This document shows positions 6,799-29,711 of a DNA stretch of 64,000 bases, piece after piece (position 1 is the stretch's first letter; every line of letters begins with the position of its first letter). Both the position numbers and the translations under genes were made by a program. This stretch comes from Acidobacteriota bacterium (GTDB taxonomy: Bacteria > Acidobacteriota > Vicinamibacteria > Vicinamibacterales > UBA8438): positions 1 to 64,000 of the forward strand of contig VXME01000135.1 of NCBI GenBank assembly GCA_009861545.1, given 5' to 3'. The notes under the pieces were generated by a model. The model was not told the DNA's origin and did no database searches. It worked only from the letters and a program-made list of their open reading frames with translations.

Positions 6799-7707
6799 GT
6801 GTTCTTCCAGACCATGTTCCGCGAAAAGGCGCTGGCCCGACGTGCGCGGCGAGAGACCGTCGACGCCCGGCTGCAGGTCACGGCGCCCCACGAGTGGCTG
6901 TTGGTGTCGGGACTGGGCGTGGCGCTGGTCGTGCTGCTGGCCTACGGCCTGCTCGGTCGGGCGGAGCGCAGCCTCTCCATCGAGACGGTGCTGGTCCGGC
7001 CCGGGGAGCGCATCGACGTGGTGGCCAGCGTGTCCGGCGTGGTCGTCGACGTGCTTTCGGAGGTCGGCGACACGGTAACCCCTGGTCAGCCCATCGCGCG
7101 CGTGCGAACGCCGGAAGCGGAGCGATGGGGCGCCGTCCTGCGCCGCCTCCGCGAGTCGATGGAGAGCGGCGACGCCCCACAGGACATGGCGGCCAACGAG
7201 AACCTCCGCGCCCTGCTTGCCTCGGCGCGCTCCGTGACCGCGCAACGCGGCGCCGATGGCTTCATGACGGAGGACATCACGACTCCCCGGCGCGGCGAAC
7301 TGGTGACGCTCGCACTGGCGGCCGGCCAGCGCATCGCGGCCGGCGAGTTCGCGGCCCGCATTCGCGCAGCATCCGCCCGCCCCGTGGAGGCGCTGGGGTT
7401 CGTCACGCGCGAGGAGGCCATGCGTCTTGTGCCGGGCATGCACGCGCAGGTGCGTCTGGCCGTGCCAGGCACGGGCGCGCCCCAGGTCCTGCCGGCGCGC
7501 GTCGAGGATGTATCCCCCCGCGTCGTACCGCCGCCGCGGTGGCTGACCGAGTTCGGGCTCGAGCCGCCGGTGCGCTCCCATCTGTTGCGCGCCACGCTGA
7601 TGGAGCCTGACCCGCTGCAGGTCATCGACGGCGCCAGCGGCACCTTGCGCATCGTCCTGGGTCACCGTTCGTTCGCCTCCCTGCTCTTCGGGAGCGACGG
7701 CGACTGA
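6799..7707 (+). CDS. NHLM-type RiPP exporter, HlyD-like membrane fusion protein
   Basis: A 302-residue periplasmic adaptor with a single N-terminal membrane segment (about 36-55, LLVSGLGVALVVLLAYGLLG), a biotinyl-lipoyl-like half motif (VLVRPGERIDVVASVSGVVVD, then VGDTVTPGQPIARVRT) and a beta-barrel C-terminus. The short coiled coil and the FREKALARR...VDARLQVT start fit the NHLM bacteriocin secretion protein family. GTG at 6799 is preferred because GAGGAG lies 4 bases upstream; an ATG at 6748 with AGGAG at 2 bases is the alternative. Its TGA overlaps the ATG of the peptidase-transporter, showing translational coupling. It probably links the two inner-membrane ABC proteins to an outer-membrane exit. 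Confidence 0.85.
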   Translation: MFFQTMFREKALARRARRETVDARLQVTAPHEWLLVSGLGVALVVLLAYGLLGRAERSLSIETVLVRPGERIDVVASVSGVVVDVLSEVGDTVTPGQPIARVRTPEAERWGAVLRRLRESMESGDAPQDMAANENLRALLASARSVTAQRGADGFMTEDITTPRRGELVTLALAAGQRIAAGEFAARIRAASARPVEALGFVTREEAMRLVPGMHAQVRLAVPGTGAPQVLPARVEDVSPRVVPPPRWLTEFGLEPPVRSHLLRATLMEPDPLQVIDGASGTLRIVLGHRSFASLLFGSDGD

Positions 7708-9899
7708 TGGGCCTGGCGTCCGGGCGCGAACGCCGGCGACGCGTCCGCACGCCGCCGCTGCTGCAAAACGATCAGACCGAGTGCGGCGCGATCAGCCTCG
7801 GCATCGTGCTCGCGTTCTTCGGCCGCTGGGTGCCTATAGAAGAGTTGCGCGCCGCGTGCGCGGTGACTCGCGACGGCAGCAACGGCGCCGACATCTGGCG
7901 AGCCGCCAGGGAGTTCGGTCTCGAGGTCCGGGGCTGGCGCAGGGAGCCCCATCAGCTCCACCGCATGCGCATGCCGCTCATCCTGTACTGGAAGTTCAGC
8001 CATTTCCTGGTCCTGGAAGGCCATGCACGTGGCCGCTACTACGTCAACGACCCCGCCAGCGGGCGCAGGACCATCGACGCGGACGAGTTCGACGAGGCGT
8101 TCACCGGCGTGGCCCTGAGTTTCGAGCCGGGCCCGCAATTCGAGCCGGGCGGGCGTCGCCCCGGCATCGTGCGCCGCCTGTGGCCCTGGCTCCGGGACGG
8201 CAAGGCGGCCCTCGCCTTCGCGTTCACGTGCGGCTTGTTGCTGTCGTTGACGGCGCTGGCCCTTCCGCTGCTCCTCGGCGTGTTCGTCGACTACGTGTTG
8301 AGCGGCCGGGAGCCTTCCTGGGCGGCGGTGCTGATCGCCGGCGCAACTGCCGCAGGAGGGTTCGTCTACCTCCTCACCTGGCTCCGGGAACGCTGCCTGC
8401 GACTGCTCTCGGTGCGGCTCTCGATCGCGCGTGCGGACCGCTTCATCGCGCGCCTGTTCAGACTGCGCACCGAGTTCTTCACCCACCGCTACGCCGGCGA
8501 TCTGACCGCGCGGATGCAGTCCATCAGCGAGGTCGCCACGGTGGCGACCGGCCAGTTCGTCGGTGTCGTCATCGAGCTCGTCGCCAGTCTTCTGTTCGTG
8601 GTGCTCATGTTCGTCTACGACCCGCTGTTGGCCGCGGTGGTGGTCGCCCTGGGGGCGGCGAGCGCCGTTCTCACGCGAACGCTGACCCGCTCGCGGATCG
8701 ACGAGAACCGCCGGTTGCAGCGCGAAGCAGGCCACCTGCAGGCGACGGGCATGCACGGATTGCGCACCATCGACAACCTGCAGGCGGTGGCGGCCGAGAA
8801 CGACTTCTTCGTTCACTTCACCGGCTTCCAGGCCCGCGAGCTGTTGGTCCGACAGCGCTTCACGGAGCTCGGCCACGTGATTGCGGCGCTGCCGGATCTG
8901 TTCCTGATCGCCGGCAACGCCGCCGTGCTCGGCCTGGGCGGCCTGCGCGTGATGTCGGGCGACATGACCCTTGGCGCGATGATGGGCTTCTACATGTTGG
9001 CGGCGAGCTTTCTGCTGCCCATCGGGCGGTTCGTGCAGTTCGCGGACCTGTTCCAGGTGCTCGACGGCCACCTGCAGCGCCTGGACGATGTCTTCGACGC
9101 GCCCGAGGACGCCCTCCTGACAAGGCGCGGCGAGGCGCTCGCGGAAAGGCCGCCGGCTTTCGCGAGGAGGCTGCGACTGACGGGGCGGTTGGAGTTGCGG
9201 AACGTGACGTTCGGCTACAAGGCCACCGAGCGACCCCTGCTGGAGGACGTGAGCCTGGTCGTCGAACCCGGCCAGCGCGTGGCCATCGTCGGGCCGACCG
9301 GTTCGGGAAAGTCCACGCTGGCCTCGCTGGCGGCGGGCATCCATCGGCCCTGGTCCGGCGAGGTCCTGTTCGACGGTCAGCCCCTCGCCAGGGTGCCGCG
9401 CGATCTCCTGACGGACTCCGTGTCGCTCGTCGACCAGCACATCTTCCTGTTCGCCGGATCGGTGCGCGACAATCTGACCATGTGGGATCGGGAGACGCCG
9501 GATCAGGCCCTGGTGGCCGCGGCCACGGATGCCGACATCCATGCGGAGATCATCGCGCGGCCCCAGGGCTACGACGCGCCCGTGCTGGAGGGTGGGTGCA
9601 ACTTCAGCGGCGGCCAGCAGCAGCGTCTGGAACTCGCCAGGGCGCTGGTGTCGAATCCAAGCGTCCTGATTCTCGACGAGGCGACCTGTGCGCTCGACCC
9701 CCTCGCCGAACTGCGTATCGACGACGCCCTGCGCCGCCGCGGCATCACGTGCCTGATCGTCGCCCATCGCCTGAGCACCATCCGGGACAGTGATCTGATC
9801 GTGGTGCTCGACCACGGTCGCGAGGTTCAGCGCGGGACCCATCAGGAACTGATGGCGGACACGGAAGGCCTCTACCGTCAGCTCATGGAGGCCGAATAG
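7707..9899 (+). CDS. NHLM-type peptidase-containing ABC transporter (C39 peptidase/permease/ATPase)
   Basis: This 730-residue transporter should cut the leader after a double glycine and export the core peptide. The N-terminal C39 protease carries C26 (QTECGAISLG), H99 (SHFLVLEG) and D115 (VNDPASG). An ABC permease region with several membrane helices follows (about 165-450). The ATPase has Walker A GPTGSGKST at about 529, signature FSGGQQQRLEL at about 633 and Walker B LILDEAT at about 654. All catalytic residues are present. It is coupled to the upstream fusion protein and followed after 2 bases by a second ABC protein, the normal NHLM arrangement. The expected substrate is the NHLP precursor encoded at 16554-16823. 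Confidence 0.93.
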   Translation: MGLASGRERRRRVRTPPLLQNDQTECGAISLGIVLAFFGRWVPIEELRAACAVTRDGSNGADIWRAAREFGLEVRGWRREPHQLHRMRMPLILYWKFSHFLVLEGHARGRYYVNDPASGRRTIDADEFDEAFTGVALSFEPGPQFEPGGRRPGIVRRLWPWLRDGKAALAFAFTCGLLLSLTALALPLLLGVFVDYVLSGREPSWAAVLIAGATAAGGFVYLLTWLRERCLRLLSVRLSIARADRFIARLFRLRTEFFTHRYAGDLTARMQSISEVATVATGQFVGVVIELVASLLFVVLMFVYDPLLAAVVVALGAASAVLTRTLTRSRIDENRRLQREAGHLQATGMHGLRTIDNLQAVAAENDFFVHFTGFQARELLVRQRFTELGHVIAALPDLFLIAGNAAVLGLGGLRVMSGDMTLGAMMGFYMLAASFLLPIGRFVQFADLFQVLDGHLQRLDDVFDAPEDALLTRRGEALAERPPAFARRLRLTGRLELRNVTFGYKATERPLLEDVSLVVEPGQRVAIVGPTGSGKSTLASLAAGIHRPWSGEVLFDGQPLARVPRDLLTDSVSLVDQHIFLFAGSVRDNLTMWDRETPDQALVAAATDADIHAEIIARPQGYDAPVLEGGCNFSGGQQQRLELARALVSNPSVLILDEATCALDPLAELRIDDALRRRGITCLIVAHRLSTIRDSDLIVVLDHGREVQRGTHQELMADTEGLYRQLMEAE

Positions 9900-9901
9900 G
9901 T

Positions 9902-12874
9902 ATGGCGGACGCAACCGGACGGTCCGCCCCTCAAACCGACGGGCAGCGCTTGGACTCCGCTGTGGAGGTTGCCGCCAGCGGGCTCGCGGACCTCGCCCTG
10001 GCACATGGGGCGCCGTTCGCCGGAGGCGGCAATCGGCCCATTCGCCTCGACGATCCCGATGCGCTGTGGTTCGTCGCCCGCGGTTCGGTGGACGTGTTCG
10101 TGGCGCGCGAACAGGACGGCGGCGCACTGGTCGAGTTCAAGCATCTTCTGCGCGCGACGCGCGGCCGGCTGCTGTTCCAGGCGGACGAGGGTCCGAACGT
10201 AATCGTAGCCAAGGGGTTACCCGATTCCGAACTGCGGCGCGTGCCGTGCGCAGCCTTCCTCGCGGCGGACGAAGGCGGCGCCGTCGTCGATCAGGCGGAC
10301 GCCTGGATTGCCGACATCTCGGCCGCGGTGGCTCTGGACGTCACTCATCGGCAGCCGATCGACTGTTTTCTTGCCGCCGGCGTGCTGGCCGACCTGAACG
10401 CCGGCGAGGTCGTATCGACCAAGGGCGGCGTCGTGTGGATGTCGGGCAGAGAGGTCGGTCTGGCGTTTCTGGGCACGGAGGAGCCCGACCGTACCGGTTC
10501 CGGCTTCGTGCCCGTCGCGCCGGGCAGTTGGGTCAGCGTGTCCGGCCCGACCCGGCAGCGGGGCGTCTCGTCACGGGAACTGCATCGCGAGGGGCGTCTG
10601 TTGGCGGCGTTGGCCGAGTTCCATCGCCTGTCGCTGGGCGCCCACGACCTCAATCGCCGCCTGTTGCTGGCCGATGCCGTCAACCTGCGCGCCGCGCAAA
10701 CGCGGCATCGCCGGGAAAGCGAAGATGCCGCGCGCCGCAGTCTCTGCGACGTGGTCGACGCGCGCGGCGCCCGGCCGGAACAAGCAGGCGGCGCCGCGCT
10801 ACAGGAGGCGCTGGCCTTGATCGGCCGCCATGAGGGCATCCGGTTTCGGGCGCCGCGGGCGCCCCAGGTGCGCCAGGGCGCCGGCGCCGAGACCGGTCCG
10901 TCGCTGGACGGTATTCTGACCGCGTCGGGCGTGCGCGGGCGCGACGTCGCGCTCGAGGCCAGGGATCGCTGGTGGCTCGGCGACAGTGGGGCGATGCTGG
11001 CGTTTCGGCGCGAGGACGGCGCGCCAATCGCGCTGCTTCCGGGCCGGTCGGGGCGCTACCGCATGGTGGATCCGGCGTCGGGACGCGCTGAATCGGTGAA
11101 CGCCGGCCGGGCTGCGGCGCTGCACGCGAACGCCGTCTTCTTCTATCAGTCGCTGCCGGATGGTCGGGTGTCCGGCGTGGGCGCCCTGGCACGGGTCGCG
11201 TTCCACAGGTGGGGGGGTGACGTGGTCCGGTTCGCGACGGCCGGACTGCTGGCGGGCCTGGCCATGCTGGCGCCCGCCGTTCTTGTCGGCGTCTTTGCCG
11301 ATGAGGTAGCGCCGGCGGGGCGCGTGGGAACGCTGGCCTGGCTGACGGCGGGGATGGTCTTGCTGGCGCTGACGGTGGGCTTGCTCGAAGTGATCGAGGG
11401 AACGGCCTTGATGCGTCTCGAAGGCCGCGCGGCGGCTCGCCTCACCGCCGCGCTCTGGGACCGCCTGCTGGACCTGCCGGCCGTCTTTTTCCGCAACTTC
11501 ACAGCCGGCGACCTGGCGACGCGCGCCATGGCGTTCCACGATTTGCGCAATCACTTGTCGGGCGTGGTCATGGGCGCACTGTTGTCGACCGTCTTCCTGC
11601 TACCGACGTTCGTCCTGCTCTTCCTTTACGACACCGCGATGGGCTGGTTGGGGCTTGCGGGTGGCCTCGCTTCGCTGGCCTTCACCGTCACACTGGGCCT
11701 GCGTCAGGTGCCTCATCACCGGCGGTTGCTTGCGGCCGAGCGCTCGCTGGCCGGCGTACTGCTGCAGTTGATCGGCGCCGCGCGAAAGCTGCGCGCCACG
11801 GGCAAGGAGTGGACGGCGTTTACGCGGTGGGCGCAGGGCTACCGTGAACAGAAGCGCAGCGAGATGCACGTCGGCGTCCTGAACGAGCATCTGGTGGCGT
11901 TCACGGCTGCCGCGCCCCTGCTGGCCACCGCCGCGCTGTTCGCGGTGGCATACGAGAGGGGACCCGCCGCGCTGTCGGCAGGCGCCTTTCTGACCGTCTA
12001 CGCCGCATACATGGTGTTGATGTCGGCCATTGCCGCGCTCGGCCGCACCGTGTCGGACGTGGCCGCCATCGTGCCGGCCGGCGAGCAGGTCTCGCCGATC
12101 CTCGAGGCTTCGCCCCGGGGCGCTGCCGGCGAAGGACCCGCGCCCGAGCTGCGCGGCGAGGTGCGCCTGGACAACGTGAGCTTCCGCTACGCCGAGGACG
12201 GCCCGCTGGTGCTGCGCGACGTCGCCATCCACGTTCGACCCGGCGAGTTCGTGGCGCTGGTCGGCGGTACGGGCACCGGCAAGAGCACGGTGCTGCGTAT
12301 CCTCCTGGGACTCGAGAAACCCTCGTCCGGCGTGGTGTACTACGATGGTCATGATCTCGAGCGCGTCGACCTGCGCGCCGTGCGGCAGCAGGTCGGCGTG
12401 GTGGTCCAGGACGGTTCGCTGCAGCCGCGGACGGTGCGCGACAACATCATCGGCCTGGCCGCGGACCTGACGCTGGACGACGCCTGGCGTGCGGCCCGGC
12501 TCGCCGCCGTCGATGGCGACATCAGGGCGATGCCGATGGGCATGCTCACCGTCGTCACCGAGGGCTCGGCGGTGTTCTCCGGCGGGCAGATCCAGCGCAT
12601 CATGCTGGCTGCCGCACTCGTGCGCCGGCCGCGCGTGCTGCTGCTCGACGAGGCGACCAGCTTCCTCGACAACAACACCCAGGCACAGGTCATGGCGCGG
12701 ATCGAGGAACTCGCCGTCACCCGTATCGTCGTTGCGCACCGGCTGTCCACCATCCGCAAGGCGGACCGCATCTACGTGTTCGACCAGGGGCGGGTGGCGC
12801 AGCAGGGGACCTTTGCGCAACTGATCGAGACGCCGGGCGTCTTTCGCGACCTGGCGCGTCGCCAACTGGCTTGA
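9902..12874 (+). CDS. NHLM-type ABC transporter, second ATP-binding/permease protein
   Basis: A 990-residue inner-membrane protein. Instead of a peptidase it has a long N-terminal region with the family-typical DDPDALWFVARGSVDVFVA segment (about 50-70) and a further linker domain. Permease helices lie at about 430-720. The ATPase has Walker A GGTGTGKST at about 788, signature FSGGQIQRIML at about 892 and Walker B LLLDEATSFLD at about 913. In NHLM systems this protein is thought to pair with the peptidase-transporter, giving a heterodimeric exporter. It ends 43 bases before the convergent CoA-transferase gene, so the two RiPP operons meet tail to tail. Confidence 0.9.
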   Translation: MADATGRSAPQTDGQRLDSAVEVAASGLADLALAHGAPFAGGGNRPIRLDDPDALWFVARGSVDVFVAREQDGGALVEFKHLLRATRGRLLFQADEGPNVIVAKGLPDSELRRVPCAAFLAADEGGAVVDQADAWIADISAAVALDVTHRQPIDCFLAAGVLADLNAGEVVSTKGGVVWMSGREVGLAFLGTEEPDRTGSGFVPVAPGSWVSVSGPTRQRGVSSRELHREGRLLAALAEFHRLSLGAHDLNRRLLLADAVNLRAAQTRHRRESEDAARRSLCDVVDARGARPEQAGGAALQEALALIGRHEGIRFRAPRAPQVRQGAGAETGPSLDGILTASGVRGRDVALEARDRWWLGDSGAMLAFRREDGAPIALLPGRSGRYRMVDPASGRAESVNAGRAAALHANAVFFYQSLPDGRVSGVGALARVAFHRWGGDVVRFATAGLLAGLAMLAPAVLVGVFADEVAPAGRVGTLAWLTAGMVLLALTVGLLEVIEGTALMRLEGRAAARLTAALWDRLLDLPAVFFRNFTAGDLATRAMAFHDLRNHLSGVVMGALLSTVFLLPTFVLLFLYDTAMGWLGLAGGLASLAFTVTLGLRQVPHHRRLLAAERSLAGVLLQLIGAARKLRATGKEWTAFTRWAQGYREQKRSEMHVGVLNEHLVAFTAAAPLLATAALFAVAYERGPAALSAGAFLTVYAAYMVLMSAIAALGRTVSDVAAIVPAGEQVSPILEASPRGAAGEGPAPELRGEVRLDNVSFRYAEDGPLVLRDVAIHVRPGEFVALVGGTGTGKSTVLRILLGLEKPSSGVVYYDGHDLERVDLRAVRQQVGVVVQDGSLQPRTVRDNIIGLAADLTLDDAWRAARLAAVDGDIRAMPMGMLTVVTEGSAVFSGGQIQRIMLAAALVRRPRVLLLDEATSFLDNNTQAQVMARIEELAVTRIVVAHRLSTIRKADRIYVFDQGRVAQQGTFAQLIETPGVFRDLARRQLA

Positions 12875-12917
12875 GGAGGGCTCGCGGGAGCGCTTCGCGA
12901 CGGCGTCGGTCGTCTTG

Positions 12918-14132
12918 CTACCGACGAGCGGCGTCCCGGATGACGCCGGCGTCGTGCAGCGCCTCGAGTTCCGCGGTGCTCAGGTCCAGCTCCGCGTCGA
13001 GCACCTCGTCGGTGTGCTCGCCGAGGCGGGGCGGGCGCTTCATCGAGACGCACGATGCCGAAGGTCCCGGAGCGAACCCCAGCATCCGTACCTTGCCATG
13101 CACCGGCAGATTCAGTTCGTGGATGAAGCCGCGCGCGGCCAAGTGCCGGTCCCGGTGCAGATCGGCCGTGTCCAGACACGCCGAACAGGGCACGCCGGCG
13201 CCGGCGATGGTCTCCATGGCCTCGTACTTGGTGCGTTCACGGGTCCAGGCAACGATCTCCTCGCGCAGCGCGTCAGCGTTCTGCAGGCGCCAGCGCGGGC
13301 TGTAGAAGCGCGGATCGCTGCGCATGTCGGCGCGATCCATGGCCTTGCACAGGGCGTCCCAGTGGGCATCGGTGAGGGGTTGGAGGTAGACGTAGTCATT
13401 GGCGCCGAACGGTTTGCACGGATACAGGCCGGCCGGCGGCAGACCGTGTGCGTTGCCGGTGCGCGGCGCCGCCCGCGCGCCCCACCTCGAGCCGGTGAAG
13501 AAATGCGAGCGCAGGTAGTACGTCACCGCCTCCTGCATCGACAACTCGACCAACTGCCCTTCACCGGTCCGCTGCCTTTGCGCCCAGGCCGCGAGCACCG
13601 CCATCGCCGCCTGGAGGCCGGTACCCGAATCGGCCATCGTCGGACCGGGCATCAGCGGCGGCCCGGCCGCCTCGCCGTTGACGGAGAACGCCCCCGCCGC
13701 CGCTTGCGCGGTCGGATCGACGCTGTGGAAGCCGGCGTAGGGGCCGCTGCCGCCGAAACCCTTGATGCGTACGTAAATCAGGCCCGGGTGGATGGCGCCG
13801 AGCGTTTCGTAGCCGATATCGAACCGTTCGATCACGCCCGGACCGTAGTTCTCCACGAAGACATCGAACACCGGCACCAGTCGCAGCAACAACTCTCGAC
13901 CCTGCCCGCTGCCGAGGTCCACCGCCAGGCTGCGCTTGTTCGCGTTCCAGGCGCAGAAGAACGCCGAGTAGCCGCTGGAGCCGTCGCGTCCGAAGACGCG
14001 GGCCCCGTCGCCAGGGTCGGGCGGCTCGACCTTGACCACGTCCGCGCCGAACCACGCCAGGATTTGCGTACAGGATGGTCCGGCCTCGTACTGGGTCATG
14101 TCGAGGACCTTCATTCCATCCAGTGCCGGCAT
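12918..14132 (-). CDS. class III (CaiB/BaiF) CoA-transferase 1 of RiPP cluster
   Basis: A 404-residue enzyme of the class III CoA-transferase family, which moves CoA between carboxylic acids through an aspartyl-CoA intermediate. Family motifs visible: LDMTQYEAGPSCTQILAWFGADVVKVEPP at the N-terminus (nucleotide-binding half), NKRSLAVDL, ENYGPGV, and the presumed catalytic D168 in MADSGTG. The ATG at 14132 has GGAGGTG shortly upstream. It is a tandem copy of the next gene: equal length, separated by 25 bases, similar throughout. Class III enzymes are interlocked dimers and paired genes can form heterodimers (BbsE/BbsF is a known case). Occurrence inside a RiPP operon is unusual; the acceptor is unknown. 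Confidence 0.85.
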   Translation of the reverse strand: MPALDGMKVLDMTQYEAGPSCTQILAWFGADVVKVEPPDPGDGARVFGRDGSSGYSAFFCAWNANKRSLAVDLGSGQGRELLLRLVPVFDVFVENYGPGVIERFDIGYETLGAIHPGLIYVRIKGFGGSGPYAGFHSVDPTAQAAAGAFSVNGEAAGPPLMPGPTMADSGTGLQAAMAVLAAWAQRQRTGEGQLVELSMQEAVTYYLRSHFFTGSRWGARAAPRTGNAHGLPPAGLYPCKPFGANDYVYLQPLTDAHWDALCKAMDRADMRSDPRFYSPRWRLQNADALREEIVAWTRERTKYEAMETIAGAGVPCSACLDTADLHRDRHLAARGFIHELNLPVHGKVRMLGFAPGPSASCVSMKRPPRLGEHTDEVLDAELDLSTAELEALHDAGVIRDAARR

Positions 14133-14157
14133 CTCGCACCTCCGCCCGTCCATCGAG

Positions 14158-15372
14158 TCACTCGAATCGCGGCGGGCCGCCGATTGCGCCGGCGTCTCGC
14201 AGTGCATCGAGTTGCGCATCGTCCAACGCGAGCTCGGCGCCGAGCAGTTCGTCGGTGTGCTCTCCCAGGCGCGGCGGGCGCTTCACCGGTACGCGGGACC
14301 TGGACATGCGGGGCGCGAAACCCGGAACGCGCACCGTGCCGTGCACCGGCAGGTCCAGCTCCTCGATGAAACCGCGCTCGGTCAGGTGCCTGTCGCGCAG
14401 CAGTTCTGCCGTGTCCAGGCACGCGGCGCAAGGCACGCGGGCCGCGGCCAGGGTCTCCATGGCTTCGAGCTTGGTCCGCGCCCTCGTCCACGAGCTGATC
14501 TCCTCGCGCAGCGCCCGGTGATTCTGGATGCGCCAGCGCGTGCTGTAGAAACGCAGGTCGACGCGCAGCTCGGGGCGGCCCATGGCCGCGCACAGCGATT
14601 CCCAGTGCTGCTCCGTCAGCGGCATGAGATAGACATGGTCGTTGGGGCCGAACGGCTTGCAGGGATAGAGATTGCCTGGCGGCACGTCGCCGGCGTTACC
14701 GGTGCGCGGTGCCGCCCGGGCGCCCCAACGCGAGCCGATGGCGCCGCGTCCGCGCACGAAGAACGTCATGGCCTCCTGCATCGACAGGTCGATTTGTTGG
14801 CCCCGTCCGGTGCGCAGCCTCCGCACCCAGGCCGCCAACACGGCCACCGCCGCGTATACGCCGGCGCCGGCATCGCCCATCGATCCCGGCATCATCGGCG
14901 GTCCTTGCGGTTCGCCGTTGATCGAGAACGCGCCTGCCGCTGCCTGTGCGATCGGCTGCTGGACCGCGAAGCCGGCATACGGGCCGCGGTTGCCGAACCC
15001 CTTGATGCGTGCATAGATGAGCCCCGGATTGACGGCGCGCAGCACTTCGTAGTCGATGTCGAGACCCTCCATCACGCCGGGCCCGTAGTTCTCCACGAGC
15101 ACGTGGAACGTCGGCACCAGGCGCAGAAACAGTGCGCGGCCCTGGTCCTTGCGGAGGTCGATCGCCACGCTTCGCTTGTTGGCGTTCCACGCGCAGAACA
15201 AGGGGGCGTACGCCTCGTTGCGAGCCCGGTCCACGCCGCGCGCCCGGTCGCCGCGTCCGGGCATCTCGACCTTCACGACGTCGGCGCCCAGCCACGCCAA
15301 TGCCTGCGTGCACGCAGGACCGGCCTCGAACTGCGTCATGTCGAGGACCCTCATGCCGTCCAATGCAGGCAA
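14158..15372 (-). CDS. class III (CaiB/BaiF) CoA-transferase 2 of RiPP cluster
   Basis: The second 404-residue class III CoA-transferase. It shares LDMTQFEAGPACTQALAWLGADVVKVE, NKRSVAIDL, ENYGPGVMEG and LYPCKPFG with copy 1; the presumed catalytic aspartate is D167 in MGDAGAG. The frame stays open upstream to 16263, but the start is placed at TTG 15372. This aligns exactly with the MPALDGM start of copy 1, gives the same length, and has AGAGGAG about 9 bases upstream. It lies between copy 1 (25 bases) and the 334-residue protein (32 bases), so all are probably one transcript from the precursor promoter. Heterodimer formation with copy 1 is inferred. Confidence 0.83.
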   Translation of the reverse strand: MPALDGMRVLDMTQFEAGPACTQALAWLGADVVKVEMPGRGDRARGVDRARNEAYAPLFCAWNANKRSVAIDLRKDQGRALFLRLVPTFHVLVENYGPGVMEGLDIDYEVLRAVNPGLIYARIKGFGNRGPYAGFAVQQPIAQAAAGAFSINGEPQGPPMMPGSMGDAGAGVYAAVAVLAAWVRRLRTGRGQQIDLSMQEAMTFFVRGRGAIGSRWGARAAPRTGNAGDVPPGNLYPCKPFGPNDHVYLMPLTEQHWESLCAAMGRPELRVDLRFYSTRWRIQNHRALREEISSWTRARTKLEAMETLAAARVPCAACLDTAELLRDRHLTERGFIEELDLPVHGTVRVPGFAPRMSRSRVPVKRPPRLGEHTDELLGAELALDDAQLDALRDAGAIGGPPRFE

Positions 15373-15404
15373 ACTCCGCTTCTCCTCTGTCTGCCGCACC
15401 GCCG

Positions 15405-16409
15405 TCAGTTCCCGGCGGGACGGACGACCATCGCCGCGTAGGCCTTGGCGGCGACGCGGCCGTGTGCGACGACGACCTTGATGTGGTTGATGGTCTGGTG
15501 GACCCGGTAGACCCCTGCGGGGCCGATCAGCCGCGTGGAACGCGGCCACGCCCGCAGGCCCTCCGCCTTCGCAGGCACGCACCACCCCTTGTCCGCCAGC
15601 CGGTCGATCACCGGCAGCCAGCCCGCGCGGTCGATGCGAGACCACTCCACGGGACGAAACAGCTCCAGCCCCAGGCGGGGCGAGATGCCGCACGCGGTGA
15701 CATCGAGGCTGAGCACGGCCCCGGGTCGGGTGAGCTCGCTCGTGTCCCTCACTACGGACATGGCCGCGGCGGGAGGGCCCGGCCAACGCAGTCGTTCGAG
15801 CAGGCCGGGAAGCTCGGCAGTGTCGATGCGATGCACGACGAGGCGCACGGCGCGCCGCCGCGCCGGCATCACGCCCGCCTGGCCGACGTGGCTCGTGCCG
15901 GAAAGGGCCTCGCACACGCGCTCGACCTGCCGCAGCTCCGCGGCGTCGGCGCGCCAGCCGGCCGCGGCCCACAGTGCGGCGACGGTGGCTGCCGGATCGT
16001 CGTGGAGTCCCCGCGCGGCGCCTTCCGAAGGGGTGCCGGGCACGAAGAAGATGCCCGGCGGCGCCGGTTCCTCCGGCAGGACCTCCGGTACGTCGTACTC
16101 GAGGACGACGGCGCCCTCCTTGCGGGACAGAAACGAGGCGGGGTCGCCCGCCTGCCGGGCGAGACAGGCGCCGAGAGCGGCCGCGGCCGAACCGGCCGGC
16201 GCCACTTCGCCGGCGCGGATGTAGTGCGCGGCAAGGGCGGAGCCGCGGACGGGAAACACGCAAAAGTCAGCCTCGGCCGCTTCGCGGCAAAGCGCGAACT
16301 CGAAACCGAATTGCTGGTCGATCACACCGATGGGCAACCGCCCGGCCATCGCGCGAAGACGCTCATACCCCCCGCCGCTCAGCAGGGCCGGAGGGAACAC
16401 CCGCCTCAT
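15405..16409 (-). CDS. uncharacterised RiPP-cluster protein, 334 residues
   Basis: A soluble protein with no recognised catalytic motif. Notable segments are GVIDQQFGFEFALCREAAEADF near residues 27-48, VLSLDVTACGISPRLGLELF near 230, KGWCVPAKAEGLRAWP near 275 and a C-terminal TINHIKVVVAHGRVAAKAY. From memory, similar FGFE...EADF and NHIK...AKAY segments occur in unknown proteins beside NHLP/Nif11-type precursors, but this could not be checked. It lies between the precursor (145 bases) and the CoA-transferases. The start is uncertain: ATG 16409 has GGAGG only 1 base away, and the frame is open upstream to about 16503 without a good start. A leader-binding or core-handling role is conceivable, not shown. 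Confidence 0.7.
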   Translation of the reverse strand: MRRVFPPALLSGGGYERLRAMAGRLPIGVIDQQFGFEFALCREAAEADFCVFPVRGSALAAHYIRAGEVAPAGSAAAALGACLARQAGDPASFLSRKEGAVVLEYDVPEVLPEEPAPPGIFFVPGTPSEGAARGLHDDPAATVAALWAAAGWRADAAELRQVERVCEALSGTSHVGQAGVMPARRRAVRLVVHRIDTAELPGLLERLRWPGPPAAAMSVVRDTSELTRPGAVLSLDVTACGISPRLGLELFRPVEWSRIDRAGWLPVIDRLADKGWCVPAKAEGLRAWPRSTRLIGPAGVYRVHQTINHIKVVVAHGRVAAKAYAAMVVRPAGN

Positions 16410-16553
16410 GCCTCCGAGCAGGCTCCCGAAGGATGGACTGCCGTCCAGCCGCGAGCCGGCTTCGGACCTGTCGACCAGTCGCGTGTCTCCGCTTCCGATT
16501 CGCTATCCGGCGTCGTCGGCGTCAAGCGAGCGGCCGCGGCGCCGGCCAGACGG

Positions 16554-16823
16554 TCAGACGGGCGAGCACCAGCCGCCGCCGCCGGCGACGGTGCGCATGT
16601 CCTCCTCGGCGAGCGCGGCCGAAGGCGGAAGCACCAGGTGCGCGGTCGTCGCGCTGTCCTCGTGCACCTCGATGGTGAAGTCGTCCGGGATGGACAGATC
16701 CAGCTCTGCCTCCATCACCGCCTTGGGATCGGCCAGCAAACGAGCCCGGAATTCCTCGTTCTCGACCGCCTTGTTTCGCACGTAGTCGTGAAACTCCTCC
16801 ACGGTCTGAAACTCTTGAGCCAT
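16554..16823 (-). CDS. NHLP-leader RiPP precursor peptide with short core
   Basis: An 89-residue precursor. The leader is a nitrile-hydratase-like NHLP leader: EFRARLLADPKAVMEAELDL, then PDDFTIEVHEDSATTAHLVL and AEEDMRTVAGG. The double glycine at the end is the expected C39 protease site, leaving a core of only seven residues, GGWCSPV. If cutting follows the last glycine of the four, only WCSPV remains. The ATG at 16823 is chosen because AGGAGGTG lies just upstream; the longer open frame to 16970 lacks this. It is the first gene of the leftward operon containing the 334-residue protein and both CoA-transferases, and the likely cargo of the NHLM exporter at 6.8-12.9 kb. Confidence 0.88.
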   Translation of the reverse strand: MAQEFQTVEEFHDYVRNKAVENEEFRARLLADPKAVMEAELDLSIPDDFTIEVHEDSATTAHLVLPPSAALAEEDMRTVAGGGGWCSPV

Positions 16824-17115
16824 CCATCCACCTCCTGACAAGCCTCGATCTGCCAGCAGCAATGCCTCACTGTTTGTACACTGAGCCACTACAACGGCAC
16901 AAGCGCAATTGTGATTATTTGGAGATAGTATGCTATAGAACGCGATATTAACGCGACTATCCGAAGCCAATCGTTAGGCAGAGTAACATTCGACTATCTG
17001 TAGCGGGATCGTCGGAGACGCTTGGCTTGCCGCGGATGCCAACCGCCACTGCGCGGCGCCTCACCCTGTCGAGTCGATCCAGGCCCGCGGACAGGCTATA
17101 TCGCTGGTCGATGCC
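16824..17115. promoter_or_regulatory. divergent promoter region of the RiPP cluster
   Basis: This 292-base gap separates the precursor operon (leftward) from the flavoprotein operon (rightward) and is clearly richer in A and T than its surroundings between about 16870 and 17000. It includes TTGTGATTATTTGG, TAGTATGCTATAGAA and a dyad CGCG-ATATTAA-CGCG (16941-16955). No single -35/-10 pair with ideal spacing stands out. It very likely holds both promoters and any operator of the cluster. No gene is seen in it. Confidence 0.5.
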
Positions 17116-18516
17116 GTGAAGGACGCCGACGCGCCGATTAGGGCTGTGGACATTGCGCCGTTGCGTACCGCCGTCGCGTTGCGCGAAAGCGATGAAGGCC
17201 GCGAGGCGGCGAGCACCGACTTCGGTCGCATGGTCCGCAAGTTGCCCCGTGCGGTGGTGACGCCCCAATCGCCGGAGGACGTACGTCGGACCCTGGACTT
17301 CGCCCGTCACACGCGCTGCCCCGTAGCCGTTCGCGGCGCGGGTCACTCCCAGGCCGGGCAGTCGCTGACCGACGGCGGCATCCTGCTCGACCTGACCGGC
17401 CTCGACCGCATCGGCGAGATCCGGGACGGCGCGGTTCGCGTTCAGGCAGGAGCGACGTGGCGCAGGCTCGTCCGCCACGTCCAGGCCCGGGGCTATCTCC
17501 CGCCGGTACTGACGACGAGCCTGGACGTCACCGTCGGCGGCACGCTGTCCACGGGTGGCCTCGGCGCCTCTTCGCATCGTTACGGCGCGCAGACGGACAA
17601 CGTCGACGAGCTCGTCGCGGTGACCGGAGACGCCCGACAGTTGCGTTGCTCGCGAACGGAGAACCCGGCGCTGTTCGACTGCGTGCGATGCGGGCTGGGC
17701 CAGTTCGCGGTGATTACGGAGGCACGAATCCGATTGCGCAGAGCGCTGCCCGATGTGCGCACCTTCTTCCTGGCCTACGACGACATCGAAGCGCTCATGC
17801 AGGACCAGCAGCAAGTCGTTTCCGACGACCGCTTCGAGTACATCGCCTCCACTTGCCTTCCTCGCGCGATGGGGCTCGAGCGTCTGCTGGCGCGCGGGTC
17901 GCCGTTCGCGGAGAGACGCTACGTCATGAGCCTGACGACCGAGTTCGACGGCGAGTGCGACTCCGACCGGGCCCTCGCCGGCCTGCACGGCGGCCGGCTT
18001 CTGGGCGCGGAAGATGGCTCGGCCCGAGATGTGCCCTTCGGCCCGGATCGGTTGGGGCCCGGGGACCGAGCGGACCGGCGTCTGGCGCATCCGTGGATCG
18101 AGGGGATCCTTCCCTGGCGCAACGCCGGGCGCTGCGTCGCGGAAGTACTGGCCGGCCTGCCGTCAGCATTGCCGACCGACACGGCCGTGCTCCTGTGGGC
18201 GGCGCGCCGCGACCGCTTCGGCGCCCCCATGCTCGCGCTTCCCGCCGGCGAACTGCTGATGGGATTCGCCATTCTGCCCGCCGTCAAGCCGGCGGCGCTG
18301 CCACGGTTGCTGCCGGGTCTGGAGGCGGCCGGCCGGCGGTTGACGACGATGGGCGGCAAGCGCTACCTGTCCGGCTGGATCGACTACGACCACGAGCAGT
18401 GGCGCGCGCACTTCGGCGACCTGTGGCCGCGGGTCGTGGATTGCAAGGCGGCGTTCGACCCGCGCGGCATACTCGATTCGGGTTTCATCCGCTATCGGCC
18501 GGCGCAGCCGGCATGA
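17116..18516 (+). CDS. FAD-linked oxidoreductase, cytokinin-dehydrogenase-like
   Basis: A 466-residue flavoprotein with a PCMH-type FAD-binding domain: PRAVVTPQSPEDVRRTLDFA at 45-64, VRGAGHSQAGQ with H77 as the likely covalent FAD attachment site, and GGTLSTGGLGASSHRYGAQTDN around 140, a hallmark of the cytokinin dehydrogenase group. The C-terminus YDHEQWRAHFGDLWPRVVDCKAAFDP is typical of the family. Such enzymes oxidise amines, alcohols or C-N bonds with oxygen or another acceptor. The GTG start is weakly supported (no clear ribosome site). It is divergent from the RiPP precursor and followed after 21 bases by the toroid protein; a role in oxidising the Trp-Cys core or a partner substrate is only inferred. 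Confidence 0.8.
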   Translation: MKDADAPIRAVDIAPLRTAVALRESDEGREAASTDFGRMVRKLPRAVVTPQSPEDVRRTLDFARHTRCPVAVRGAGHSQAGQSLTDGGILLDLTGLDRIGEIRDGAVRVQAGATWRRLVRHVQARGYLPPVLTTSLDVTVGGTLSTGGLGASSHRYGAQTDNVDELVAVTGDARQLRCSRTENPALFDCVRCGLGQFAVITEARIRLRRALPDVRTFFLAYDDIEALMQDQQQVVSDDRFEYIASTCLPRAMGLERLLARGSPFAERRYVMSLTTEFDGECDSDRALAGLHGGRLLGAEDGSARDVPFGPDRLGPGDRADRRLAHPWIEGILPWRNAGRCVAEVLAGLPSALPTDTAVLLWAARRDRFGAPMLALPAGELLMGFAILPAVKPAALPRLLPGLEAAGRRLTTMGGKRYLSGWIDYDHEQWRAHFGDLWPRVVDCKAAFDPRGILDSGFIRYRPAQPA

Positions 18517-18537
18517 GGCAGGCTACGAGGAGACGGG

Positions 18538-19527
18538 GTGGACGAACGGTTGCGGCAAGCCGCGCGGGCGGCGGTCGAGCGCGGCCTCGACTTCCTGGAG
18601 AGCGTCGTGGCGCCGAACGGGAGCTGGCCCTGCTGGCGATACGACAATACTGGCCTCGTCGGCGCCCGGCACCGCGAGTATCCGCCCTTCGCGGCCGCGC
18701 TCGGATCCCTCGCGCTCGACGCCTGCCACCATCCCGGAGCCCGGGCACTGGTCGCGCGGACGCGCGAGTTCATCAGAAGCCGTATGCAGTACCCCGGCGT
18801 ATGGAGTTACCCGAGCCTGCCTCCGTCCGTCGACGATACGGCGATCTGTGCGCTGGCGGTGGGTCCGCACCCGTGGCTCCGCATGGGCAGCCTTTGGGGT
18901 CGGAATCTCGACGTGCTCCTGGCGCATCGCGACGGCGACGGTCGGTTCGTCCTGTGGATGCCGGGCGACGATTGGCCGCGCGGACTCGACAACGAGGTCG
19001 ACGCCGTGGTGAACGCCAACGTGCTCGCGTACATGGGAGACCACGCCGAGACGCAAGCGGCGCAGCGCTGGATCGAAGCCGTGGTCGCGGAGCGGCGCGA
19101 GGCCGACGCCTCGCCGTACTACATCGAGCCCGTGGATCTCCATTTCGCGCTGGCGCGCGCGAGCCGCTTCCGCGACGGCATCCTCGGCGAGCTGCGTCCG
19201 ACCCTGGCGAGCCGCATCCTGGAGCGCCTCGGCGCCGACGGCGGGTTCGGCGACCCCATGCGTACGGCGCAGGCGCTGTCGGCGCTCGACATGCTCGCCT
19301 TCGATCTCGACGAAGGCGTGCTGGGCGCGGTCGTCGGGAGGCTGATCGAGGCCCAACGTCGCGACGGAAGCTGGCGGCCGTGTGTGGCCTGGAAGGAACC
19401 ACCCGGATGGGCCGACTGGGTGGCGGCCAACGAGGGTCCGTTGCACGTGCTGCCGCCGCGCGGCTTCGCCTCCGAAGCGATGACCACGGCGTTCTGCATC
19501 GAAGCCATGCAGAGGTCGCTCCGATAG
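18538..19527 (+). CDS. half-size terpene-cyclase/prenyltransferase-like alpha/alpha toroid protein
   Basis: A 329-residue protein built of helical-barrel repeats like the squalene cyclase/prenyltransferase family: DFLESVVAPNGSWPCW, GVWSYPSLPPSVDDTAICALA and IEAQRRDGSW (QW-like). S97-V-D-D-T-A resembles the DxDDTA general-acid motif of class II terpene cyclases with the first Asp replaced by Ser. At half the length of squalene-hopene cyclase it may be a single-domain cyclase, a binding protein, or inactive. The start is GTG with GAGGAG 6 bases upstream. It follows the flavoprotein after 21 bases and shares its promoter. It is unclear whether it acts on the peptide or a separate lipid. Confidence 0.65.
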   Translation: MDERLRQAARAAVERGLDFLESVVAPNGSWPCWRYDNTGLVGARHREYPPFAAALGSLALDACHHPGARALVARTREFIRSRMQYPGVWSYPSLPPSVDDTAICALAVGPHPWLRMGSLWGRNLDVLLAHRDGDGRFVLWMPGDDWPRGLDNEVDAVVNANVLAYMGDHAETQAAQRWIEAVVAERREADASPYYIEPVDLHFALARASRFRDGILGELRPTLASRILERLGADGGFGDPMRTAQALSALDMLAFDLDEGVLGAVVGRLIEAQRRDGSWRPCVAWKEPPGWADWVAANEGPLHVLPPRGFASEAMTTAFCIEAMQRSLR

Positions 19528-26524: not shown

Positions 26525-28519
26525 ATGTTGAGATTCGCCGAAGAAATCAGCCTGTTGCTGCTCGACGAAGAGCGTGGCGAGACCGTCCCTCCCAGTCTCC
26601 CGCGACACACGTTCAGCACCGTGCTCGCCGGCGCGGTATTGATGGATCTGGCCCTGGAGGAACGCATAGACACGGACCTCGAAAAGCTCGTGCTCGTCGA
26701 TCCGGCACCGCTCGAAGACGGGCTCCTCGATCCCACGCTGGCCGACATCGCGCGGGCATCCCGGACGTACGACACCGGGTACTGGATCGAGCGCACGTCC
26801 CGGCGCGCCGACGACATCCACGACGCCGCGCTCGCGAGGCTGATAGAGCGCGGCATCATCGAGGACGATGTCCCGGGGCTCTTCTTTCTGTCCTCCCGCG
26901 TAGCGCGTTCCCGCCGCTACCCGGCCATCGACGGCAAGTCCATCGATGACGTCCGCTTGCGCGTGATGCGCATACTCTTCGAGGACGACGTCCCCGACCC
27001 GCGCGACATAGCGATCATCTGTCTGGCCGACGCGTGCGGGATCTTCGAGGCGCTGCTGTCGCGCTCGGAGCAGGCCCGCACAAGGGAACGGGTGGAGCTG
27101 CTGCGACGGATGGACCTGATTGGCCGGGCGGTTACCGCGGCCATCCGGGACCACGAAGCTCCCGCGTGCCCTTCCGTCTCCGTCCGTCCGCTGGGAGAGA
27201 TACCGATCGCACGGGGATTGCCGATGGTCGGAAACGCGTTTCGGATGGCCGGCGATGTGAGCGCCTTTCTCACGGACCAGTATCTCAGGATGGGTCCCGT
27301 ATTTCGGGTGCGGGCATTCCATCGCCACTACGTGGTACTTGCCGGCCCGCAGGCCAACCTGTTCATGAACGCCGCGGGCAGGACGCATTTCCGTTCGTTC
27401 GAGGGATGGGTGGACTTCAACGCCGAATTCGGCTCGATGCGCTCGCTGATCAGCATGGATGGCGCCGATCATCTGCGTCTGCGGAAGGTGCAGGCCAGGG
27501 GTTATTCCCGCGGGCGGATCGAGAGCCGACTGGCAGAGGCAATCGGCGTCGTCCGACAGGAAATCGCCGGCTGGCCGGTGGACCGGCCCATTGCCGGCCA
27601 CTACGCGTTTCAGCGCATCGTCACCGAACAGATCTGCACCCTGATCGCCGGCGTGTCGGCCCAGGGCTACCTCGACGATCTGATTCTGTTCTTCACCGCG
27701 CTGCTGAAGGCCCGCATGACGCACCACCGCCCCGGCCTGCTGATGAGGCGCCCCCGCGTCCAACGCGCCCGCAGGCGGCTGAACGAGCTGTACCGGAAGG
27801 TGCTGGCCGACCACGAACCGGAAGGACGCGGCGGCCGGGACCCGGACATGATCGACGATCTGCTCGACCTGCACCGTACGGACCCCGTGTTCATGCCGGA
27901 AGTCGATCTCGTCATTTCGGTTCTGGGGCCCTTCTTCGCCGGGATCGATACCGCGGCGAACGTCTTGGCCTTCATGCTCTACGAGACGCTGAGGCATCCG
28001 GATCTGCGCGAGCGCATGACCGCCGAGGCGGATGCGTTCTTCGCTGCTCCGGGAGAACCGACGGCCGGGGGCCTGCGGGCGCTGGACGTCACGCACCGCG
28101 TCGCCATGGAAACGCTGCGCATGCATCCGGTCGCTCCCGCGCTGACCCGCACCGTGACCAACGCGTTCGATTTCGAAGGCTACGCGATCCCGGCCGGCAC
28201 GCGCGTCATCATCGGCAGCACGGTGCCGCACCGCCTGCCCGACTGCTTTCCGGATCCGGAGCGGTTCGACATCGAGCGCTACACGGCAGCTCGGGCGGAG
28301 CACCGCGCGCCAGGGGCGTACGCCCCCTTCGGCCTGGGAGTACACCGCTGCCTGGGCAACGGGTTTGCCGAAACGCAGATCGTGCTCACGATGGCGACCA
28401 TCCTGCACGACGTCGCGCCGGCGCTCGATCCGCCGGACTATCGCTTGAGAATCGAGCACGCACCCACTCCCCACCCGGCCGATTCGTTCCGGTTCCGTCA
28501 GAAACGCCGGCGGGAATGA
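26525..28519 (+). CDS. GPP34-like domain fused to cytochrome P450
   Basis: A 664-residue fusion. Residues 1-210 match the GPP34 (GOLPH3/Vps74) family: FAEEISLLLLDEERG, LAGAVLMDLALEERI, LARLIERGIIED and DVPDPRDIAIICLADACGIF. From about 220 a full P450 follows, with AGIDTAAN in the I helix (about 471), ETLR (about 528) and the heme loop FGLGVHRCLG (about 600-610, cysteine thiolate). GPP34 proteins bind phosphoinositide or membrane lipid in eukaryotes; the bacterial role is open. P450s insert oxygen using a ferredoxin or reductase partner, not seen here. The gene heads an operon with a sulfotransferase (70 bases) and an RND permease. Confidence 0.85.
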   Translation: MLRFAEEISLLLLDEERGETVPPSLPRHTFSTVLAGAVLMDLALEERIDTDLEKLVLVDPAPLEDGLLDPTLADIARASRTYDTGYWIERTSRRADDIHDAALARLIERGIIEDDVPGLFFLSSRVARSRRYPAIDGKSIDDVRLRVMRILFEDDVPDPRDIAIICLADACGIFEALLSRSEQARTRERVELLRRMDLIGRAVTAAIRDHEAPACPSVSVRPLGEIPIARGLPMVGNAFRMAGDVSAFLTDQYLRMGPVFRVRAFHRHYVVLAGPQANLFMNAAGRTHFRSFEGWVDFNAEFGSMRSLISMDGADHLRLRKVQARGYSRGRIESRLAEAIGVVRQEIAGWPVDRPIAGHYAFQRIVTEQICTLIAGVSAQGYLDDLILFFTALLKARMTHHRPGLLMRRPRVQRARRRLNELYRKVLADHEPEGRGGRDPDMIDDLLDLHRTDPVFMPEVDLVISVLGPFFAGIDTAANVLAFMLYETLRHPDLRERMTAEADAFFAAPGEPTAGGLRALDVTHRVAMETLRMHPVAPALTRTVTNAFDFEGYAIPAGTRVIIGSTVPHRLPDCFPDPERFDIERYTAARAEHRAPGAYAPFGLGVHRCLGNGFAETQIVLTMATILHDVAPALDPPDYRLRIEHAPTPHPADSFRFRQKRRRE

Positions 28520-28589: not shown

Positions 28590-29711
28590 ATGACCATACA
28601 GGCCGACTCGACCCTGCGGCAGCACATGTTCGCCCTCGCGCCGCTCCGTGTCTGGTGGCGTCTGCTGCGGGAGCATGGCGGCGTGGCGCCCCGCCGCCGC
28701 GGCGCGCTGGCCCGTATTCTGCCGACCAGCCTCGGGACGCTCCCGCTGCGCCTCGCCGAGAGCGCGATCCATGGACGCCGCGTGCGGCGGACGCCCATCG
28801 AGACGCCGCCGGTGATGATCCTCGGATACGGCCGCAGCGGCACGACCCATCTGCACAACCTGCTGGTCTGCGATCCGAATCATGCCGGCGTCACCACGTA
28901 CCAGGCGATCGCGCCGGCGTGCTGCCTCGTGGGCCGCCGATTCCTCAAGCCGCTCATCGCAAGACATCTCCCCGCGAAACGGCCCATGGACAACATGGAC
29001 GTATCGCTCGACCTGCCGCAGGAGGAAGAGATCGCCATCGCCGGGCTGTCGCATCAGTCGTTCCTGCACCACCTCTCGTTCCCGCGGGCGGCCAGGCGCT
29101 GCTACGACCGGTACGCGGCGATGCAGGGCCTGACGCCGCGGGAAATCGAGCGGTGGGAACGGACCTACCTCGATGTGGCCCGCAAGGCGACGGTGATTGC
29201 CGGTGGCCGGCGCCTGGTGCTGAAGAGTCCGTCCAACCTGGCGCGCGTGCCCCACATCCTGCGCTTGTTCCCGGGGGTGAAATTCGTTCACATCGTCCGC
29301 AATCCCTACGTCGTGTACCGCTCGCTGACGCACATGTTCCGGCGGATCCTGCCGCCGAACCAGTTGCAGGAAATCGGCTGGGAGGAATTCGAGGAGCACA
29401 TCCTCTACGCGTACGAGCGGTCGATGCGCCAGTATCTTGCGGACCGGTTCCGTATCCCGCCGGGGCATCTGACCGAAGTGCGGTTCGAGGATCTGGAGAC
29501 CCGTCCCCTCCACGAGCTGCAACGCGTCTATGCGGACCTGTCCCTCCCGGACTGGGAGCGGGCCAAGGACCACTTCGCGGAGTATCTCGGGCCGCGGGCG
29601 ACGTACCGGAAGAACCGCTACGGACTCGACCAGGCCGTAATCGACCGTGTCGACGCCCGGTGGCGCTTCGCCGTCGACGCGTGGTCATACACGCCCCCGG
29701 AGACCGGGTGA
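28590..29711 (+). CDS. PAPS-dependent sulfotransferase family protein
   Basis: A 373-residue sulfotransferase. The 5'-phosphosulfate loop ILGYGRSGTTHLHNLL is at about 77-92 and the 3'-phosphate motif HIVRNPYVVYRSLTHMF at about 233-249; KSPSNLARVPHI resembles the catalytic lysine or serine region. The family moves sulfate from PAPS to hydroxyls or amines of carbohydrates or lipids; the C-terminal YLGPRATYRKNRYGLD is typical of the Sulfotransfer_3 group. Placed directly behind a P450, it could sulfate the new hydroxyl. No signal peptide is seen, so it probably acts in the cytoplasm. A GGAG lies about 9 bases before the ATG. Confidence 0.85.
   Translation: MTIQADSTLRQHMFALAPLRVWWRLLREHGGVAPRRRGALARILPTSLGTLPLRLAESAIHGRRVRRTPIETPPVMILGYGRSGTTHLHNLLVCDPNHAGVTTYQAIAPACCLVGRRFLKPLIARHLPAKRPMDNMDVSLDLPQEEEIAIAGLSHQSFLHHLSFPRAARRCYDRYAAMQGLTPREIERWERTYLDVARKATVIAGGRRLVLKSPSNLARVPHILRLFPGVKFVHIVRNPYVVYRSLTHMFRRILPPNQLQEIGWEEFEEHILYAYERSMRQYLADRFRIPPGHLTEVRFEDLETRPLHELQRVYADLSLPDWERAKDHFAEYLGPRATYRKNRYGLDQAVIDRVDARWRFAVDAWSYTPPETG

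Follow-up and report, generated by a model that had tools for sequence, protein, structure and literature searches.

What processes the peptide encoded at this locus, and what are two class III CoA-transferases doing in its operon? The locus lies in a stretch of 64,000 nucleotides of Acidobacteriota DNA, here called the window, from a genome of 174 contigs and 6.35 Mb. An initial annotation, made from the sequence alone, described a complete NHLM export set, an NHLP-leader precursor, and a pair of CaiB/BaiF paralogues as the apparent tailoring enzymes. Taking the evidence together, we think the locus probably encodes a proteusin-type RiPP pathway in which Trp is isoprenylated, the product leaves through the NHLM system, and the CoA-transferase pair contributes a specialized step.

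Profile searches bore out the export set and the leader. The NHLM ABC1 protein, combining C39 peptidase, permease and ATPase (7707..9899, plus strand; TIGR03796, NHLM_micro_ABC1, 870.6 bits, cut-off 853.3; PF03412, Peptidase_C39), and the NHLM ABC2 permease/ATPase (9902..12874, plus strand; TIGR03797, 724.6 bits, cut-off 709.4) both exceed their cut-offs, while the HlyD-type NHLM adaptor subunit (6799..7707, plus strand) is a weak match at 50.9 bits against a TIGR03794 cut-off of 156.2 and is therefore divergent. The 89-aa precursor (16554..16823, minus strand) scores 61.1 bits with TIGR03793 (cut-off 50.9), has a good ribosome-binding site, and ends in VAGGGGWCSPV, with the core GGWCSPV following a double Gly. 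Its minus-strand operon runs from the precursor through a 334-aa protein to CoA-transferases 1 and 2 with intergenic gaps of 144, 32, and 25 bases in that order, placing the pair in the precursor's own operon, as had been claimed. Immediately upstream, genes for an FAD oxidase and a class II terpene cyclase occupy the opposite (plus) strand. The reported absence of other common RiPP enzymes also held, as Pfam and NCBIfam profile searches found no LanM, LanB, YcaO, or radical SAM gene in the precursor/CoA-transferase locus. Neither a YcaO nor a Trp brominase, both typical of srp clusters, occurs in the 6-23 kb region of the window, no Rfam family was detected in the 6-24 kb region, Foldseek comparisons with viral models returned nothing significant, and promoter and terminator scans gave results no better than shuffles.

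The two CoA-transferases (copy 1, 14158..15372, minus strand, TTG start; copy 2, 12918..14132, minus strand) are Frc-like proteins of 404 aa that are 67% identical to each other and match PF02515 (CoA_transf_3) at 345.6 and 346.6 bits, respectively. The catalytic Asp assigned to them in the initial annotation (D167 in copy 1) is kept in all eight aligned pair members and in the outgroups. At a stringent cut, 4 of the 193 class genomes carry the pair, each time in the operon of an NHLP precursor with a WCSPV core and nowhere else in those 193 genomes. The copies form two orthologous clades across these four genomes and three genera (tree support, 100/99 and 100/100), and WCSPV is invariant in all four clusters; a pattern search of the whole phylum for the GWCSPV end hit the window and, apart from it, a single chance match without an NHLP frame. 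Because the pair accompanies one particular core, it points to a product-specific step. In samples of the phylum (396 genomes), 19 genomes, one of them the window's own, passed E 1e-90 for relatives of the pair, and no paired copies were seen outside the four related genomes. The closest outside relatives are single copies from 14 genomes of one other genus, scoring about 520 bits versus 836-844 for the window's own copies. None of these closest relatives elsewhere in the phylum is paired, so the initial annotation's own condition for rejecting its idea, a pair equally common without an NHLP precursor, does not tell against it. A literature search found no paper joining RiPPs with CaiB or an NHLP leader with a CoA-transferase, in line with the earlier remark that no RiPP class is known for such a pair. 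The pair, then, is a genuine RiPP partner, seemingly unreported.

What these enzymes activate is a guess. Our best guess is a carboxylate, either of the peptide (the C-terminal Val or a carboxyl produced by oxidation) or of a small acid used on it. More specifically, the pair might form a peptidyl-CoA thioester on a WCSPV core with prenylated Trp, at its C-terminal Val or on an oxidized carboxyl of the isoprenoid, a proposal that we hold tentatively, as possible rather than probable. Counting against our reading, no acyltransferase or thioesterase able to use an acyl-CoA lies near the pair, and within the phylum samples paired copies are confined to the four related genomes. Class III CoA-transferases normally move CoA between small acids, and lipidation of NHLP peptides by acyl groups is known from the selidamides. 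By analogy with acylated proteusins, the pair might instead make or recycle an acyl-CoA that ends up on the peptide, without activating the peptide itself. We find this somewhat unlikely, given that no GNAT or other acyltransferase is present among the annotated genes of the four clusters and that the WCSPV core has no Lys or Orn to receive an acyl group.

A second alternative arises from the ancestry of the pair. The nearest solved relatives, YfdW and Frc, are formyl-CoA:oxalate CoA-transferases sharing its fold and catalytic Asp, and an oxalyl-CoA decarboxylase (Oxc) adjoins the closest outside relatives in all three inspected loci (567.1 and 567.0 bits in two, cut-off 557; 555.9, just below, in the third), so the lineage of the pair is Frc-like. 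Oxalate- or formate-type enzymes could simply be hitch-hiking in the operon, with no role on the peptide. This is unlikely, as no Oxc gene is present in the window locus, the window copies reach 300 and 308 bits where the Frc equivalog model requires 504, and the glycine loop GGGGQ of Frc is replaced in them by AGDVPPG and AHGLPPA. Unlike Frc and YfdW, the window copies also stand in tandem in a RiPP operon, and both have been kept as separate orthologues adjoining the WCSPV core in four genomes. Activation of a carboxylate, on the peptide or on a small acid used on it, is still the role we would tentatively assign to the pair.

The prenylation step of our reading belongs to the gene between the precursor and the pair. 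This gene (15405..16409, minus strand) encodes the 334-aa protein, a putative ABBA-fold peptide (Trp) prenyltransferase whose real start may be slightly upstream of the annotated one. The protein has no Pfam or NCBIfam match, its 26 relatives have no credible Pfam match (PatF and other catalogued ABBA families included), and a comparison with PDB sequences gave chance matches only, none to a prenyltransferase; at the sequence level, these searches link it to no characterized prenyltransferase. In an AlphaFold model built from the alignment of 26 relatives (pLDDT 90.7, pTM 0.90), helix pairs alternate with strand pairs, and the top 45 Foldseek matches in the PDB are all ABBA-fold aromatic prenyltransferases, among them CloQ (E 5.6e-5), FgaPT2 (TM 0.61), CymD, AnaPT, DMATS1, and TleC. 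After this result, the candidate identities HopA1-like lyase, SpaB_C, and PatF were dropped. Residues E37, D48, E104, D106, R184, K281, H309, K311, K322, and Y324 are invariant in the 26 relatives, a combination of charged and polar residues such as would be expected at a diphosphate-binding site.

Of the 193 class genomes, 21 encode relatives of the 334-aa protein, as do 11 of the 396 genomes sampled from the phylum. Scanning a genome collection with a six-row alignment of the family returned only known Acidobacteria/Vicinamibacteria relatives; the nearest named relatives of the window's genome in that collection are metagenome-assembled genomes of these groups. Elsewhere, the family is found with NHLP precursors and NHLM genes and adjoins YcaO (loci L046-L055), LanM (L061, L062, L119, and L121), PhyH and JmjC oxygenases (L041-L043 and L057), a Trp halogenase (L046, L048, and others), or an FAD oxidase (L038 and L039). 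It is also naturally fused to a terpene-cyclase-like part, which follows the prenyltransferase in L122 and L125 and precedes it in L118.

The cores next to this family carry a second signal. Trp is present in 24 of 27 distinct cores adjoining a 334-aa family gene versus 0 of 8 distinct cores without one (Fisher, 7e-6), values of this test being guides rather than exact probabilities because the sequences are related. The counts were made by hand, and "without" means that the fetched stretch holds no gene of the family. Placing in the "without" group four cores of L159 that end in Trp and have no prenyltransferase gene in their fetched stretch gives 9e-4, and grouping the cores into families by eye gives 0.003. 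Both groups omit L158 and L163, which repeat cores already counted and have a prenyltransferase elsewhere in their assemblies. The three cores that adjoin the family and lack Trp count against Trp prenylation. Given the ABBA fold, the terpene cyclases fused or LanM and YcaO adjacent, and the Trp bias of the cores, prenylation of Trp is nonetheless most likely, and the family probably comprises leader-guided peptide prenyltransferases, as yet unnamed and outside current Pfam models.

Some other enzyme, or a scaffold, built on the ABBA fold would agree with the lack of sequence similarity to known members and with the moderate TM-scores, which mostly range from 0.47 to 0.61. Such a protein is at odds with the class II terpene cyclases that are fused to the family or adjoin it, with the Trp bias, and with the conserved charged residues, and we consider it decidedly unlikely. 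A prenyltransferase acting on the core Trp remains our reading of this gene.

One of the enzymes just upstream fits isoprenoid chemistry as well. A 329-aa protein (18538..19527, plus strand) resembles monodomain class II terpene cyclases in profile searches (drimenol synthase, 3e-19; squalene-hopene cyclase; MstE) and in Foldseek comparisons of its AlphaFold model (pLDDT 90.6; drimenol synthase, E 1.3e-12; MstE, 1.5e-9). Two points count against this part of the reading. The window protein reads SVDDTA in place of DxDD, with the first Asp replaced by Ser, and a cyclase is missing from L036 and L037, two of the four clusters that carry the pair. Cyclization is therefore not essential to the CoA-transferase variant. 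The FAD-linked oxidase (17116..18516, plus strand; 466 aa; FAD_binding_4/cytokinin-dehydrogenase-like; PF01565, 119.6 bits; PF09265, 41.3 bits) has a FAD4-type counterpart in every pair-bearing cluster (4/4).

The initial proposal, in which tailoring falls mainly or solely to the CoA-transferases and these define a RiPP class through carboxyl activation or supply of an unusual acyl-CoA, draws on the strict operon linkage, the conservation of the pair with an NHLP precursor, and the kept Asp, but it is very unlikely given that the intervening ABBA-fold enzyme is common to many other NHLP clusters and that pair-less relatives retain precursor, prenyltransferase, and export. Its view of the pair as part of the RiPP operon stands; its view of the pair as the sole tailoring system does not, because a predicted prenyltransferase separates the precursor from the pair and genes for a cyclase and an FAD oxidase are found just upstream. 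Two genes that it had not recognized as modification genes, those for the 334-aa and 329-aa proteins, encode isoprenoid-chemistry enzymes by fold.

Several known systems help place the pathway. NctPC, as outlined in a review (Hubrich et al. 2024, cited in PMC13290415), unites an ABBA prenyltransferase and an MstE-like cyclase in one protein and puts geranylgeranyl on Trp. The window has the elements of that outline, namely an ABBA fold (by prediction and Foldseek), an MstE-like cyclase, and a core Trp in a ribosomal peptide. By the same outline it differs in encoding prenyltransferase and cyclase separately, the two being fused in the relatives L118, L122, and L125, in adding the CoA-transferase pair and the FAD oxidase, and in its WCSPV core. 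MppC from the mpp cluster (MppE/MppC/MppM) of Moorena producens, which we compared by description, is likewise a leader-dependent ABBA prenyltransferase acting on Trp (PMC12715784), in a cluster with a terpene synthase gene (PMC11791876) and a 7-residue core; unlike the window, mpp has a Nif11-type leader, a LanM lanthionine ring, a halogenase, and arginases, and no CoA-transferase.

The srp clusters of sponge symbionts (SrpE core -LCCCW, SrpC YcaO, SrpI brominase; PMC10286304) correspond to our YcaO/halogenase loci L046-L055, with the core GLCCCW. They share with the window an NHLP precursor, NHLM export, and homologues of the 334-aa protein and the cyclase, but have a YcaO and a brominase instead of CoA-transferases and FAD oxidase, and their Trp is C-terminal. 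In these loci, the ABBA-fold homologue adjoins the YcaO gene; the srp papers that we searched make no mention of a prenyltransferase or prenyl step. Cyclase-like proteins of the srp type carry an NHLP-like domain at the N terminus (L049:5652-6953, L048:4803-6101, L053:13441-14751, and others), as if the enzyme bore its own leader mimic. PalQ prenylates Trp of PalX, whose precursor has an NHLP leader (PMC10853753), and PalQ/PalX and ComQ/ComX resemble the window in pairing a short peptide with a prenylated Trp; their prenyltransferases have the isoprenoid-synthase fold rather than ABBA, and no NHLM set or CoA-transferases are described for them.

Judged by its architecture, the predicted pathway is that of an isoprenoid-modified RiPP in which the CoA-transferase pair is the new part. 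Most likely, the backbone of its chemistry is prenylation of Trp, accompanied or not by polyene cyclization, of the kind published for MppC and, in outline, for NctPC. Export set, leader, folds, operon, Trp link, and conservation of the pair are the parts supported by tests, and from them we infer the prenylation itself, its donor, the order of the steps, and the entire role of the CoA-transferases. The 334-aa enzyme would use the leader to place the core Trp (the W of WCSPV) and transfer an isoprenyl group onto it. The monodomain cyclase of the window and of its closest relative may then cyclize the attached chain, and the FAD oxidase may oxidize the product. The C39 domain of ABC1 would cleave behind the double Gly, and the NHLM system would export a peptide of 6-8 residues.

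We know of no earlier CoA-thioester step in RiPP maturation, and a peptidyl-CoA, if true, would be the first; it could lead, for example, to a Cys thiolactone or another ring. With one precursor, one prenyltransferase, and two CoA-transferases, the locus offers a small, testable case for asking if ribosomal peptides undergo CoA-thioester chemistry. The work also adds a family of probable peptide prenyltransferases, found in Acidobacteriota in the company of NHLP precursors and class II cyclases as well as LanM and YcaO.

Other observations concern the surroundings of these genes. The window's genome (G000) holds two further clusters with an NHLP precursor and an ABBA-fold gene, one with PhyH/JmjC oxygenases (C124, L041) and one with LanM (C150, L062). 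In L124 (8564-10522), a relative of the 334-aa protein adjoins a LanM-like gene and carries a fused segment whose CxxxCxxC motif suggests a radical SAM domain. Tandem arrays of at least four NHLP precursors whose short cores end in Trp or contain it are found at L159:9056-10654 and L039:5287-6577. Between the precursor and prenyltransferase genes of L037 (10905-11100; GGAGCTTGCGCC ... GGCGCAAGCTCC) and L036 (10455-10700) lies a long inverted repeat, perhaps an attenuator or processing hairpin. Farther along the window, a GPP34 domain and a cytochrome P450 share a single plus-strand frame (26525-28519), with a sulfotransferase (28590-29711) and an RND pump following it.
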